Shown here in pieces: positions 1,232 to 5,414 of a stretch of DNA of 5,414 nucleotides. This DNA is from an uncultured Lachnospiraceae bacterium (GTDB lineage: Bacteria; Bacillota_A; Clostridia; Lachnospirales; Lachnospiraceae): contig CAMWMM010000366.1 in the NCBI GenBank assembly GCA_947175285.1, positions 1 to 5,414 on the forward strand. Reading direction: 5' to 3'. The notes under the pieces are model-generated. The model searched no databases. It was not told the origin of the DNA and saw only the letters and a list, made by a program, of their open reading frames with translations. Each line of letters begins with the position of its first letter. Positions within the stretch are counted from its first letter, which is position 1. A program made the translations under genes and the position numbers.

Positions 1232-1239
1232 ATTCTCAT

Positions 1240-1246
1240 CCTCCTT
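1240..1246 (-). promoter_or_regulatory. Strong ribosome binding site of the 295-aa gene
   Basis: AAGGAGG on the minus strand, 8 bases before ATG 1229-1231. The start region (AAGGAGGATGAGAATATG) closely resembles that of the DUF4956 gene (AAGGAGGATAAGAGTATG). It starts 4 bases after the downstream arm of the second possible leader hairpin, so its accessibility may depend on leader folding. Confidence 0.85.
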
Positions 1247-1250
1247 GATG

Positions 1251-1284
1251 TTACCGTTTTCCTTGCGGTAATTCCGTTTACCGC
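1251..1284 (-). promoter_or_regulatory. Leader with two mutually exclusive hairpins (GCGGTAA / TTACCGC / CGGTAA)
   Basis: In the transcript direction the leader contains GCGGTAA (1278-1284), a 6-base loop ACGGAA, then TTACCGC (1265-1271): a perfect 7-bp hairpin beginning roughly 10 bases after the predicted start of transcription. A third copy, CGGTAA (1251-1256), can pair with the same central TTACCG (1266-1271) across a 9-base loop, forming a 6-bp hairpin that ends 4 bases before the AAGGAGG. The central arm can therefore pair either upstream or downstream, but not both. There is no T-run, so this is not an intrinsic terminator. The repeats are directly visible. A regulatory switch, a protein-binding operator or a simple stabilising 5' hairpin are all possible; which one is inference. 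Confidence 0.55.
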
Positions 1285-1299
1285 TATGTTTATATAATA

Positions 1300-1327
1300 A
1301 TATCGGCGGATTTTCGTATGAACTTTA
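1300..1327 (-). promoter_or_regulatory. Sigma-28 (SigD/FliA-type, motility) promoter
   Basis: On the minus strand TAAA (1324-1327) is followed after 16 bases by GCCGATAT (1300-1307). The known sigma-28 consensus is TAAA, about 15 bases, then GCCGATAA/T. Here both boxes match fully, and the -35 side reads TAAAGTTC, close to the enterobacterial TAAAGTTT. Predicted transcription start is near 1293, giving a leader of about 60 bases before the ATG at 1231. Orientation and position fit the 295-residue gene. No competing sigma-A promoter of quality is seen in the gap. Confidence 0.85.
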
Positions 1328-1342
1328 GACATATTGAATAAA

Positions 1343-1367
1343 TAAAAATGCTAGCTTCTGCATTCTC
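1343..1367 (-). terminator. Possible weak terminator after DUF4956 gene
   Basis: In the transcript direction, GAGAATGC (1360-1367) can pair with GCATTTTT (1344-1351) using two G-U pairs, around an 8-base loop that overlaps the TAG stop codon. The descending arm runs into a T-rich tract (TTTTTATTTATT). The core Watson-Crick stem is only AATGC/GCATT, so strength is doubtful. Confidence 0.3.
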
Positions 1368-2031
1368 CGTCATGCGCAATGCAATTCACCTGTGTAAGAA
1401 ATTCCATATTTCCCAGTGTATGCAGTAAACTCTCTTTTTCTTTTGTACGAATTTCAATAATCAGCTCCGTCTCTCCGTTTTTCATTGTCCTGGCTTTTTC
1501 CTTATATGATTTACAATATTTCCCAATTTCTTCATAAAGAATACCGTAATCTATCTTTTCCTTCCCACCGCGCAGCACCAACAGTTCCGGCGCCTTTGTA
1601 ACCGGAATTCTGTCCGTTACAAACAAAAGCAATGTCATAATGACAGATGAAAACAGTGCCAAAGCAAATAAGCCGACTCCCGCGATAATACCGCCGCTGA
1701 CTGCCCAAAACAAATATAACAAATCAATTGGATTCTTTACGGCGTTTCGGAATCTGACAATAGACAATGCTCCCACCATACCCAGCGATACTAATAGATT
1801 AGACTGCATGGCAATCATGATAGATGCTACAATAATCGGCATTCCTGCCAACGTAATATTTAAATCCTTGGAATAAAAAGCCGATTTACTCGATATCTTA
1901 TATACTAAAAAAATATAGCTTCCCAAAAGAAAAGCCGCAAACAGAATCAGAATCACCGTTCTTACCGGTAAACCAGCTCCACCGCCCAATGATTCATATA
2001 TACTGTTTTTAATGACATCTTTTACTGACAT
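1351..2031 (-). CDS. DUF4956 domain-containing multi-pass membrane protein, 226 aa
   Basis: The ATG at 2029-2031 is preceded by AAGGAGG (2040-2046), so the start is firm. Hydrophobic segments fall at about residues 24-44, 58-76, 78-92, 103-120 and 121-139, then a soluble C-terminal part of roughly 85 residues. The stretch SLGMVGALSIVRFRNAVKNP (82-101) followed by LLYLFWAVSGG (104-114) is the hallmark I recognise for the DUF4956 family. The soluble tail has alternating hydrophobic strands and lysine-rich helices and may be a small alpha/beta domain facing the cytosol. The family has no established biochemical function. It lies 27 bases downstream of the CotH gene on the same strand and almost certainly shares its transcript. 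In related genomes, from memory, DUF4956 genes sit next to CotH and VTC-type polyphosphate polymerase genes, which suggests a shared envelope role. No polymerase is present in this window. Confidence 0.9.
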   Translation of the reverse strand: MSVKDVIKNSIYESLGGGAGLPVRTVILILFAAFLLGSYIFLVYKISSKSAFYSKDLNITLAGMPIIVASIMIAMQSNLLVSLGMVGALSIVRFRNAVKNPIDLLYLFWAVSGGIIAGVGLFALALFSSVIMTLLLFVTDRIPVTKAPELLVLRGGKEKIDYGILYEEIGKYCKSYKEKARTMKNGETELIIEIRTKEKESLLHTLGNMEFLTQVNCIAHDGECRS

Positions 2032-2039
2032 ACTCTTAT

Positions 2040-2046
2040 CCTCCTT
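2040..2046 (-). promoter_or_regulatory. Ribosome binding site of the DUF4956 gene
   Basis: AAGGAGG on the minus strand, 8 bases before ATG 2029-2031, within the 27-base gap after the CotH stop codon. No promoter or terminator fits in this gap, supporting co-transcription. Confidence 0.85.
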
Positions 2047-2058
2047 AAATCCGTACTT

Positions 2059-4437
2059 TTAATTGTCTTTTTCAAATAAAGCCTGCAGCGTTATATTTCC
2101 GTTTTCCAGAGAAATACTCAGTTCTTCTGCCTTGCTGTCTACATCTCCCTGCCATCCCGCAAAGTGATATCCTTCTTTGGCATGTGCTGATATCATGATG
2201 GGAAAATCACTGTAATAATATCCTTCCCATGATTCGATTCCTTCCAATTCGGCAGTATTTACGGTAATCGTGCCGCCCTCCGGCAGATTTGATGTGACAG
2301 ATATACGATTAAGTTCTCCTGACAAACCAAATGTCTTTGCCAAACTTTCCATTGCAAAACCAAACCGATTCTCAAAAAAGGCATCCACCTGCGCCGCTTC
2401 AGCACAAAAAGCTTCCATATCATATTCGGAATCAAAAAACCGCTGATGGTCTTTTACCACCTGAACACCATAAACGCTGCTCCAATCAGCTATCATTGCA
2501 TGCATCCGTTCATAAGAAAAAGTAGTGTTTGCAATGTCCATAAACGAGATACAGAATTGACGCCGAAAATCCTCATTATCCATGAGGCTCGCTACTACCG
2601 GTTCGTTAAGCAGTACGCTTTCCTCCATCCAGTTTTCCCTGTCTTCCCATATGTTGCTGTCCTGATAGATGCAGTCATCTAAATCATAAAGCATAAACCG
2701 CCATTTTCCATCACTATTACCGGTTTCTTCCTGTGCCGTTCGCCATAAAGCCGTATTATACCCGAACCCTACGTCTCTGTTGTCTATATACAGATTGATG
2801 CAGCAAAAATCAATCAGACTTTGGATATCGACCAATTCTCCGGCAAGGGCATAAGTATCCTCATAAGTCATGTCGCATTCCGTTACTACATCCAACATAT
2901 ATTGATACGCTGACATAGTTTCCTCAAAGTTTGTCTCTGCGTTACCTGCCTTAACCAGCATAATATCATTTGCGTCTATATTAAAATAATTTGCAAGATA
3001 TTCCTCGTTGTATCGTTCCCGGATACTGTAGATTCCCCAATATTCCCCATTCAAAAAAACTGCACAGGGTCTTGCTCTCTGTATGGTAACAGTTTTCCTG
3101 TCTCCGGCGGCTTCTTCCAACAGGGCATCCAGAAATTTTAATCCGTCTACGTTGCCGCCTCCGTTTCGTATTTTAACGGAAGATGAAATAATATCATTAT
3201 CAAAAAAAGCATACGGAATCACCTCAGTTTCATCATAAATATCTCTTGCGAAAATATTGAAAGATTTCTGAGGTACACCACGGGTTGAATTACCGGAAAT
3301 ACGAACGCCTGCACTTTGACTAAAGCAGCAGGAATGCGTTTCATCAAAATAGGAAATGAAAGCCTTTCGCTCCCATTCTCTTCCTTTATAAAAGGCGTTA
3401 GATGCCATATAACGATGCCAAACCTCCCCGTCAGCATCTTCAAAACTGTCTAAAATCTCTCCATCCTGCATACCGCCGTTTGCAAGATATTCCTCATATT
3501 TCATACCGTTTCCATAAATGCCTGTCTGACTGTCAAATAAATCCTCGGGATCAACGACTAAAGACATCACTGCCATTTGGGCATATTCCGTCTTCTCATT
3601 ATAACCTACAAAATAAGTTTCCGTGACAATATCGCTCGCCTGATTTGTAACAGGATTATAGCAGACCGCGCGCACGACAGTGGCTTTATCTACAGGAAAA
3701 TCAGGTGTGTAATCCTTTGTCGGTGTTAAATCCGTACGGCTGGCATATCTGTTTTCTTCCTGACTATTGTCCGTAATCCAAAGCGGTCCTTCATAAAGAA
3801 AAGAATCCTTGGTAGGTTCACTGCCATCCATAGTATAATATATCTTTTCTCCATTGGGGGAATATAAGTGGAGAGTAAAAGCATCTTCATAAAATCCGCT
3901 TGTCACTTCAAAAATCGGTTCATCCAAAGAAATGACAGGTAAAAGTTCCGCTTCTTCATTTGAACTGCCCAGCGTGGGATTCATCACAGACCACTTATAT
4001 TTTCCATCCTGTATTCTGCCATAGCTGGTATCATAAGAAAGCCGCGGAATCACCACCTGGTCAAGCGGGTTCAGGGAATTGTCTGTCAAAAATATCGTCT
4101 CTCCGTCTTTAGAAATGCGCAGTCCGGATTCTTTTCCCAGCCAGACAAGTGTATACCCTCCGGCAGGAACCAGAACCCCTTCTAAAGAATACTTATCCAT
4201 TTCCTTTCTGTCATCCGTAAGAAAATAGCCGTCCAGAGAAACCGCTTCCCTGCCGGGGTTATATAATTCTATACAGTCTGAATACTCACCGTTTTCATCA
4301 CTTTGCACCGCAAAATTATTACTGCATATCTCATTGATAACTACATGAGGCTTTCCAAAGCAATCATTTACTACCGCAACTGCCAATATAGAAATTGCAA
4401 TAACCAGAATTACCTTTCGTAAGAATCTTTTTTCCAT
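2059..4437 (-). CDS. CotH-family kinase, multidomain, membrane-anchored or secreted, 792 aa
   Basis: I place the start at ATG 4435-4437, numbering from there. A longer frame begins with TTG at 4452, but that TTG overlaps the GAGGAG ribosome binding site, so it is unlikely. Domains in order: KRFLRK plus a hydrophobic segment (about 5-24), a signal peptide or anchor without a lipobox; a lamin-tail-like domain (about 30-150, with VVINEICSNN and DCIELYNPG); a chitobiase C-terminal-like domain (about 174-278, with YYTMDGSEPT); a CotH kinase domain (about 285-640); and a C-terminal InlB-repeat-like domain (about 715-790, GYHFAGWQGD). Kinase landmarks are RISGNSTRG (379-387), KSFNIFAR (391-398), FLNGEYWGIYSIRE (461-474), DNRD (552-555) and WRFMLYDLDD (579-588) with acidic D585/D587. 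CotH of Bacillus phosphorylates spore-coat proteins. The much larger extracellular versions in Clostridia have unknown targets. It is the first gene of a unit with DUF4956, from its own promoter. The kinase assignment is firm; target and activity are not known. Confidence 0.93.
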   Translation of the reverse strand: MEKRFLRKVILVIAISILAVAVVNDCFGKPHVVINEICSNNFAVQSDENGEYSDCIELYNPGREAVSLDGYFLTDDRKEMDKYSLEGVLVPAGGYTLVWLGKESGLRISKDGETIFLTDNSLNPLDQVVIPRLSYDTSYGRIQDGKYKWSVMNPTLGSSNEEAELLPVISLDEPIFEVTSGFYEDAFTLHLYSPNGEKIYYTMDGSEPTKDSFLYEGPLWITDNSQEENRYASRTDLTPTKDYTPDFPVDKATVVRAVCYNPVTNQASDIVTETYFVGYNEKTEYAQMAVMSLVVDPEDLFDSQTGIYGNGMKYEEYLANGGMQDGEILDSFEDADGEVWHRYMASNAFYKGREWERKAFISYFDETHSCCFSQSAGVRISGNSTRGVPQKSFNIFARDIYDETEVIPYAFFDNDIISSSVKIRNGGGNVDGLKFLDALLEEAAGDRKTVTIQRARPCAVFLNGEYWGIYSIRERYNEEYLANYFNIDANDIMLVKAGNAETNFEETMSAYQYMLDVVTECDMTYEDTYALAGELVDIQSLIDFCCINLYIDNRDVGFGYNTALWRTAQEETGNSDGKWRFMLYDLDDCIYQDSNIWEDRENWMEESVLLNEPVVASLMDNEDFRRQFCISFMDIANTTFSYERMHAMIADWSSVYGVQVVKDHQRFFDSEYDMEAFCAEAAQVDAFFENRFGFAMESLAKTFGLSGELNRISVTSNLPEGGTITVNTAELEGIESWEGYYYSDFPIMISAHAKEGYHFAGWQGDVDSKAEELSISLENGNITLQALFEKDN

Positions 4438-4445
4438 TCCCTGAC

Positions 4446-4451
4446 TCCTCA
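4446..4451 (-). promoter_or_regulatory. Ribosome binding site deciding the CotH start
   Basis: On the minus strand GAGGAG sits in TTTGAGGAGTCAGGGAATG, about 8 bases before the ATG at 4435-4437. The in-frame TTG at 4450-4452 overlaps this element and has no ribosome binding site at a suitable distance, so the ATG start is preferred, five codons shorter. Confidence 0.75.
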
Positions 4452-4474
4452 AATCGAATGCTAATCAGGAGTAA

Positions 4475-4532: not shown

Positions 4533-5414
4533 TCAGCTCGATATCTGCCGTCCTTCATGGTCGAGATGATAGTTATCCTTATAAATCAACTCTGAAATAG
4601 GAACAAACTCATAGCCCTTCTTTTCTAATGTCGTAATCAGGGTATCCAGAGCCTGCGCCGTGAATTTAGCACCGTTATGGCAAAGAATGATGCTGCCGTT
4701 GCCAAGATGTTTGTGTTCCGTCACTGTCTTGATAATAGAATCCACGCCGTAGTCTTTCCAGTCAAGAGAATCCACATCCCACTGAATCGGATAATAACCG
4801 CATTTTTTAGCTACTTTTATGACATCATTGTCATAATCTCCGTAGGGCGGGCGGAATAAGAACATTTCATATCCGGTCAACTCCTGCACCTTTCTATGTA
4901 CTGCCATAAGTTCTTCCTCACATTCACTATTGGAAAGCTGTGACATATTTTTATGATTTTCACTGTGGTTGCCCAAATCGTGTCCGTCTGCAAGGATTGC
5001 CTTTACGTCATCAGGATAAGCCTCCACCCATCCCCCGGTCATAAAAAAAGTTACTTTTACATTATGTTTTTTTAAAATTTCCAGTATTTTAGCGGTATCC
5101 TCATTCCCCCAAGCCGCGTCAAAGCTTAAGGCAATCTGCGGTTTTTCCGTCTGCACACAATAAATAGGCAGTTCTCTTCCGTTTACGGTATTGCTGACGG
5201 TAATGGAATCCGGCAGCACTTTAACAATTCCCTGAATAAGGGCAACCGTAGCCAGTATAAAAGCTGCTGACATAACGGCATGGGATAAAATCTCCTTCCG
5301 AAACTCTGCTTTCTTCCACTCCTTTTTTGTCTTATACTTCTTTTTCGTCCCATGTTTTTTGCTGTCATTTTTCTGAGAACTGCTTTTTTCTTCACTGATC
5401 TTTCCCTCTAACTT
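4533..5414 (-). CDS. Membrane-anchored polysaccharide deacetylase (NodB/CE4 family), 5' end outside window
   Basis: Residues are numbered from the Met at 5271-5273, but that is probably not the start. The same frame stays open for 47 further codons to the window edge, encoding a lysine-rich stretch (KKEWKKAEFRKEILSHAV) joining a membrane segment (about 1-18). AAGGAG at 5295-5300 is some 18 bases from that Met, too far. This suggests a basic cytosolic tail, one membrane anchor and an extracellular enzyme. The NodB domain spans about 46-231: motif 1 SFDAAW (D52), motif 2 NHSENH (H103, H107), motif 3 RPPYG (141-145), motif 4 WDVDSLDW (165-172) and motif 5 LCHNG (H199). Canonical motif 1 is TFDD; here the second, metal-binding Asp is Ala, as in PdaB-like sporulation deacetylases. 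The family removes acetyl groups from N-acetylated sugars, and the likely substrate is peptidoglycan or a surface glycan. PdaB-like or peptidoglycan deacetylase is my best guess; the exact subtype is not certain. Confidence 0.9.
   Translation of the reverse strand, partial: KLEGKISEEKSSSQKNDSKKHGTKKKYKTKKEWKKAEFRKEILSHAVMSAAFILATVALIQGIVKVLPDSITVSNTVNGRELPIYCVQTEKPQIALSFDAAWGNEDTAKILEILKKHNVKVTFFMTGGWVEAYPDDVKAILADGHDLGNHSENHKNMSQLSNSECEEELMAVHRKVQELTGYEMFLFRPPYGDYDNDVIKVAKKCGYYPIQWDVDSLDWKDYGVDSIIKTVTEHKHLGNGSIILCHNGAKFTAQALDTLITTLEKKGYEFVPISELIYKDNYHLDHEGRQISS

Follow-up and report, generated by a model that had tools for sequence, protein, structure and literature searches.

Can a gene that stands among non-flagellar neighbours, and whose product resembles no described flagellar protein, be part of the flagellar regulon? 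The question is raised by a 5,414-nt stretch of DNA from an uncultured Lachnospiraceae bacterium (the window, taken at its full length), in which an uncharacterised gene follows a sigma-28-type promoter and had been proposed in a first-pass annotation as a candidate new member of that regulon. We refer to the encoded protein and its relatives as family A, and the coordinates of the features discussed are collected in Table 1.

The sequence TAAA-N16-GCCGATAT occurs exactly once in the window, at 1327-1300 of the minus strand, where it agrees with the pattern TAAA-N15/16-GCCGATAW placed 5' of a start codon in the correct orientation. GCCGATAT is a form of the sigma-28 consensus for the -10 box. 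The first-pass annotation had described the match as complete at all twelve core positions and as very unlikely to arise by chance, and both statements hold: shuffled windows contained a mean of 0.01 exact motifs, with just two of 200 shuffles having one. It was also right that the gene has a strong ribosome binding site, in the form of a strong Shine-Dalgarno (SD) sequence, and that the promoter lies before the gene, but the distance it gave as about 60 bases is 68 nt when measured from the end of the -10 box to the ATG at 1231. The motility passages of PMC3720852 report TAAA-N15-CCGATAT as the general bacterial sigma-28 consensus and TAAA-N16/17-MCGATAa as that of Butyrivibrio fibrisolvens; they also give sigma-28 promoters for flagellins of Roseburia and Eubacterium, note csrA in a motility locus, and do not mention genes of the family A type.

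Table 1. Positions of the promoter, leader and protein features in the window, and of associated genes in related genomes
Feature	Position	Strand	Basis or description
Sigma-28 -35 box TAAA	1324..1327	-	Motif scan, conservation in relatives
Sigma-28 -10 box GCCGATAT	1300..1307	-	Spacer to -35 box of 16 nt
Leader hairpin 1, GCGGUAA-ACGGAA-UUACCGC	1265..1284	-	7-bp stem, ANGGAN hexaloop; predicted upstream CsrA site
Leader hairpin 2, CAUC-AAGGAG-GAUG	1237..1250	-	SD in loop; predicted CsrA site over ribosome-binding site
Family A ORF, 295 aa	344..1231	-	ORF, homologue alignment, AlphaFold
Cluster 19 gene	L001 1-862, L002 356-1606, L003 464-1696	-	
Divergent CsrA-like matches	G001:C94:2024-2185, G002:C44:47067-47228, G003:C22:60361-60513, G005:C2:41590-41724, G007:C2:106645-106770		

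The protein itself gives little away about its role. Pfam and NCBIfam searches returned weak matches alone, none over the curated cut-offs, and PHROGs, which has no curated cut-off, yielded no significant match (best E 0.0087). As none of the three collections produced a curated flagellar or chemotaxis family, the earlier remark that the protein matches no flagellar family is borne out to that extent. We found 238 homologues (120 of the 238 listed), and 35 relatives searched against Pfam have no family in common, the best being Int_N in 13 of the 35 (E 0.003). The window protein begins with beta strands at the N-terminus, followed by a conserved helical core, a variable acidic linker and a second conserved helix region. 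Its C-terminal part consists of a Ser/Asn-rich linker and a conserved tail that ends in EGANVDVML. An alignment of 35 proteins shows the conserved core, the variable acidic linker, the second conserved block around EADMKYLKALF and the conserved tail. In an AlphaFold model (mean pLDDT 70, low confidence in the linker and tail) long helices accompany three strands at the N-terminus, and the structure analysis yields a generic helical bundle and nothing more specific. The other open reading frames of the window encode an M3 peptidase fragment, DUF4956, CotH and a PdaB-like deacetylase, none of them flagellar, in agreement with the first reading of this DNA. The DUF4956 and CotH-kinase/LTD genes are adjacent (window 1351-4452), and the deacetylase gene then occupies 4533-5414.

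Conservation upstream of orthologues had been named as a check on the promoter. Of 273 loci encoding a relative, 80 were retained, and 56 of these 80 fetched loci are Lachnospiraceae according to their records. We scored 80 leaders, made up of the window and 79 loci, with L073 left out since it has 40 nt upstream only. The best sigma-28 score was 12/12 in 25 leaders, 11 in 11, 10 in 22, 9 in 14 and 8 in 8, in comparison with shuffled leaders that reach 12/12 in 0%, 11/12 in 0.4% and 10/12 in 5.9% of cases. At least 10/12 is thus attained by 58 of the 80 leaders, with the other 22 below it, while about 6% of shuffles reach 10/12 or more, so that the boxes are conserved above the shuffled background. 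Across the window and the 80 loci, 514,514 bases in all, there are 25 exact motifs, and each of the 25 precedes a family A gene. Neighbouring genes vary among the loci, the most widespread neighbour cluster being present in 14 of 80, and with gene order so variable around it, the promoter and the gene travel together.

For flagellin genes, whose promoters had been suggested as the yardstick, we scored 30 of 63 flagellin places in 10 genomes from a fixed start that is off for some of them, and obtained 11/12 in seven leaders, 10/12 in seven and lower values in 16, with 12/12 in none. Family A sites, which reach 12/12 in relatives where these 30 flagellin leaders peak at 11/12, therefore rank with or above flagellin sites. 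Counted genome-wide over six genomes, the exact promoter pattern gave 74 matches and its reversed control 38, which means that many of these matches are due to chance. We fetched 73 exact sites with their surroundings from the six genomes, and 51 fall inside a long open frame and 22 outside. Four of the 22 precede family A genes (L088, L127, L133, L140), one a DUF6033 gene (L138) and three a gene of the family that we label KMDSILMR (L118, L130, L152), a coiled-coil family unrelated to family A; the remaining 14 lie before other genes or no clear gene.

Between promoter and start codon, the leader of the window folds with a z score of -3.8 into two hairpins whose loops are both ANGGAN hexamers, so that an ANGGA hairpin loop lies 5' of the SD sequence and a second site overlaps it, the arrangement of CsrA-controlled leaders, both sites being predicted. 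Passages of PMC7652899 describe RsmE, a homologue of CsrA, as having ANGGAN hexaloops for its ligand, and report for glgC and hag leaders with two CsrA sites, one of them over the SD sequence. The pattern AAANGGANTT is present in 53 of 81 family A leaders, a density of 2.2 per kb as against 0.046 per kb elsewhere in the loci, and at least two further consecutive pairs beyond the selected AA/TT are formed in 52 of the 53 leader occurrences versus 8 of 46 elsewhere. The stem covaries: over 42 distinct rows, 161 of the 210 cells for its five outer positions are paired, compared with 132 +/- 4 after shuffling, with none of 2000 shuffles as high, and the innermost of the five alternates between T-A, G-C and C-G. 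An ANGGAN hexaloop on a stem of at least 4 bp was found in 51 of 80 family A leaders and in only 5 of 290 neighbour genes, of which one is a cluster 19 gene (see below) and one a DUF6033 gene. The second loop has a similar signature, as the SD context TCANGGAGGA appears in 50 of 81 leaders with N being G in 21, A in 20, T in 5 and C in 4, whereas among neighbour genes just 8 of 104 NGGAGG sites have CA before them (NGGAGG near mechanically called starts for the neighbours, NGGAGGA for family A). A UC/GA stem closing a second ANGGAG loop would require a CA that is kept before the SD sequence next to a variable N, a context that SD strength alone would not maintain.

A loose form of the hairpin, GSYAAANGGANTTRSC, matched 39 times in 20 genomes against 17 times for the reversed pattern, and a family A gene was present in 15 of the 30 matches with a locus. 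The same kind of hairpin precedes 11 of 30 flagellin genes. In 17 leaders (18 when a longer stretch is taken) the element has a larger form, in which an outer stem CTTATAG/CTATAAG encloses two GGA hairpins, GGAAACGGATTTCC and GTTC-ANGGA..-GGAC (L026, L039, L051, L056, L066, L067, L075 and others). Rfam gave no match at the larger leader in L026, L039, L056 and L067, and the 18 larger-leader outer stems found elsewhere include the same palindromic sites on the other strand. In eight of the 80 leaders (L017, L038, L042, L048, L055, L064, L078, L080) both RNA elements are absent and no promoter reaches 10/12; in L064 the family A gene is preceded by a KMDSILMR gene, which may supply its promoter.

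The regulators that such leaders would require are widespread among the carriers of family A, with csrA and fliW each over the cut-off in 45 of 49 carrier genomes. The four genomes without csrA and fliW over the cut-off are G020, G022, G041 and G047, and the hairpin is still present in L023 (G022) and L061 (G041). Several genomes also have divergent CsrA-like matches (E 7e-6 to 7e-5), distinct in position from the main csrA gene next to fliW and situated some hundreds of bases away from flagellin genes (Table 1).

The next part of the question is whether family A is found where sigma-28 and flagella are found. We searched 49 carrier genomes, drawn from 50 hand-picked loci of the 80, for FliA at the TIGR02479 cut-off, and 44 of the 49 exceed it. 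The other five are G010 with a partial match, Eubacterium plexicaudatum ASF492, whose gene lies in two frames that overlap, and G018, G035 and G043 with no clear match, although the L019 leader of G018 carries a 12/12 promoter. In ASF492 (G031) the two fliA frames span C1:1870226-1870884, and the frameshift is either natural or from assembly. Flagellin genes were found in all 10 carrier genomes tested. A host with sigma-28 and flagella, on which the original proposal depended, is thus typical of the relatives, and FliA in the host of the window itself is inferred from them. In a second survey, we sampled 299 genomes evenly across the taxonomic family to which ASF492 belongs, a species that NCBI files under Eubacteriaceae and that GTDB places in Lachnospiraceae; family A was detected by profile and FliA at E <=1e-50. 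The family A profile matches 45 of the 299 genomes and FliA is present in 152. FliA accompanies family A in 43 of 45 carriers, the two others being ASF492 and G091, compared with 109 of 254 non-carriers (Fisher p 3e-12, relatedness not corrected). Orthologues, whose restriction to flagellated genomes had been suggested as a check, are thus nearly confined to genomes with FliA. Family A is nevertheless an accessory gene, as it is missing from most FliA genomes of the sample. In Parablautia intestinalis (G045:C119:40994-43071; L187, the same place as L071), a family A gene lies divergent from a short flagellin gene at a distance of about 0.9 kb.

Family A has company in this distribution. DUF6033 genes directly adjoin family A genes on the same strand in nine loci, namely 8 of 36 further family A loci and L063. 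DUF6033 is present in 99 of the 299 genomes, of which 97 have FliA, and within FliA genomes the two families co-occur with p 5.5e-8 (relatedness not corrected). Among 20 further DUF6033 loci, eight have a promoter of at least 11/12 (three at 12/12) and 12 have the hexaloop, which lies 22-30 nt before the start in nine of them and 71-217 nt away in the other three, where it may be due to chance. A second DUF6033 gene, L107, follows an exact site that lies inside an overlapping frame, about 6 kb from fliA of G004. By eye, GGA hairpins are clear in three KMDSILMR leaders and short in two DUF6033 leaders.

The proteins also end alike. Of 121 family A ORFs, a set that includes places fetched twice, 101 carry the motif G-x(1,3)-[VIFLM]-D-x(1,4)-end; counted by distinct tails the figure is 96 of 116. 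The motif is also found in 11 of 11 and 19 of 20 DUF6033 proteins and in one of four KMDSILMR proteins, as against 5 of 496 control ORFs (5 of 491 distinct tails). The controls were called mechanically, with spurious ORFs among them, and the cluster 19 protein accounts for two of their five hits. The PF19498 (DUF6033) profile did not match the window protein up to E 1. The cluster 19 gene is situated upstream of the family A gene, on the far side of the deacetylase-like gene, and encodes an uncharacterised protein with a length of about 410 residues (STLLSDYASIKNGSYGKMMKAYY...); its leader has a hairpin of the GGC-ACGGAU-GCC type, and the protein has an LDTT. ending in L002 and L003.

Taken together, promoter conservation, FliA in the carriers and near-confinement to FliA genomes support the initial proposal of a new regulon member, and late flagellar control of family A is well supported by these sequence comparisons. 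We consider it very probable that the window gene belongs to the late (class III) flagellar genes and is under the double control of flagellin. The motility promoter and an RNA structure of the type bound by CsrA, as in flagellin genes, are kept in many relatives, and family A is therefore likely to be an overlooked part of the flagellum system. Under this model, sigma-28 (FliA) would transcribe the gene after completion of the hook, CsrA would bridge the two leader loops and block the ribosome, and FliW, freed during flagellin export, would remove CsrA. Because CsrA would be taken off at the time of flagellin export, the protein would be made mainly during filament assembly. Together with the tail that DUF6033 also has, this timing would fit a factor of the filament stage, or an export substrate, that binds a common partner. 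We tentatively propose that the product may be a helical, non-enzymatic protein of the filament assembly stage, either an export-coupled factor or a minor export substrate, which would work with DUF6033 via the shared tail G-x-x-Phi-D.

Other readings of the promoter and the leader differ in how well they fit these data. It is very improbable that the site arose by chance or belongs to an ordinary sigma-A promoter. A sigma-A scan does give an overlapping 9/12 match (TTCATA-N17-TATTAT at 1322-1294), but the 12 sigma-A-like sites in that scan compare with 13.0 expected, in contrast to a sigma-28 motif that is conserved and has the low chance expectation given above. The hairpins could instead bind a ligand other than CsrA or simply stabilize the mRNA, a reading made improbable by the A-N-GGA-N loop that stays fixed while N varies, by the covarying stem, by the second such loop enclosing the SD sequence and by the same element before flagellin genes, which are known CsrA targets in Bacillus and Campylobacter in the passages cited here; in its favour, CsrA binding is a prediction, and two of the four carriers without csrA and fliW over the cut-off keep the hairpin.

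We give appreciable weight, while thinking it unlikely, to the idea that the promoter is functional and the protein is unrelated to the flagellum, with sigma-28 and CsrA recruited for another trait of swimming cells, such as a surface, stress or chemosensory function. Family A is absent from many FliA genomes, and no main flagellar operon was recognised around the family A gene in the loci examined, where neighbours were clustered and partly named by eye. Against this stand the two flagellin-type controls that are kept together, the near-confinement to FliA genomes, the link to the likewise FliA-confined DUF6033 and the nearby flagellin gene of Parablautia intestinalis. These favour a late flagellar gene.

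Extending that preferred reading, it is possible, rather than probable, that these gut Clostridia have an unrecognised flagellum-coupled module. Three or more unrelated families would belong to it (family A, DUF6033, KMDSILMR and perhaps cluster 19), and their co-expression through sigma-28 and CsrA/FliW would keep time with the export of flagellin. The G-x-x-Phi-D tail of family A and DUF6033, and loosely of the others, might then dock to one partner, for example the export gate, a chaperone or the nascent filament. If so, the flagellar regulon of motile Lachnospiraceae would hold several families missed by neighbourhood-based annotation, and CsrA-FliW would control more than flagellin in these Firmicutes. 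Motile members of the Lachnospiraceae are common commensals of the gut, with flagellins that act as immune antigens. The findings on family A and DUF6033 would then provide a handle on families of unknown function.

Our searches of the open-licence PMC literature showed nothing on family A, on DUF6033 or on such leaders in Lachnospiraceae, and the closest parallels come from within the analysis and from two flagellin systems. Family A resembles DUF6033 (PF19498) in promoter type (for part of the members), leader hairpin, C-terminal G-x-x-Phi-D and shared loci, and differs in that the window protein lacks a PF19498 match, leaving leader, locus and C-terminal motif as the only features in common. 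In Bacillus subtilis, hag has a sigma-28-type (sigma-D) promoter and two CsrA sites in its leader with one over the SD sequence, as set out in passages of PMC7652899 and PMC6529632. The predicted arrangement in the window is the same, although its product is not a flagellin and is in no known family, and CsrA binding here is a prediction. For Campylobacter jejuni, passages of PMC4894983 describe a flaA 5'UTR with two stem-loops bearing ANGGA loops, the second over the ribosome-binding site and supported by compensatory changes, and a CsrA-FliW network that also governs other flagellar mRNAs. Campylobacter belongs to another phylum and its target is the major flagellin, in contrast to the uncharacterised families found here, yet the leader in the window is built in the same way, from two loops of which the second covers the ribosome-binding site.
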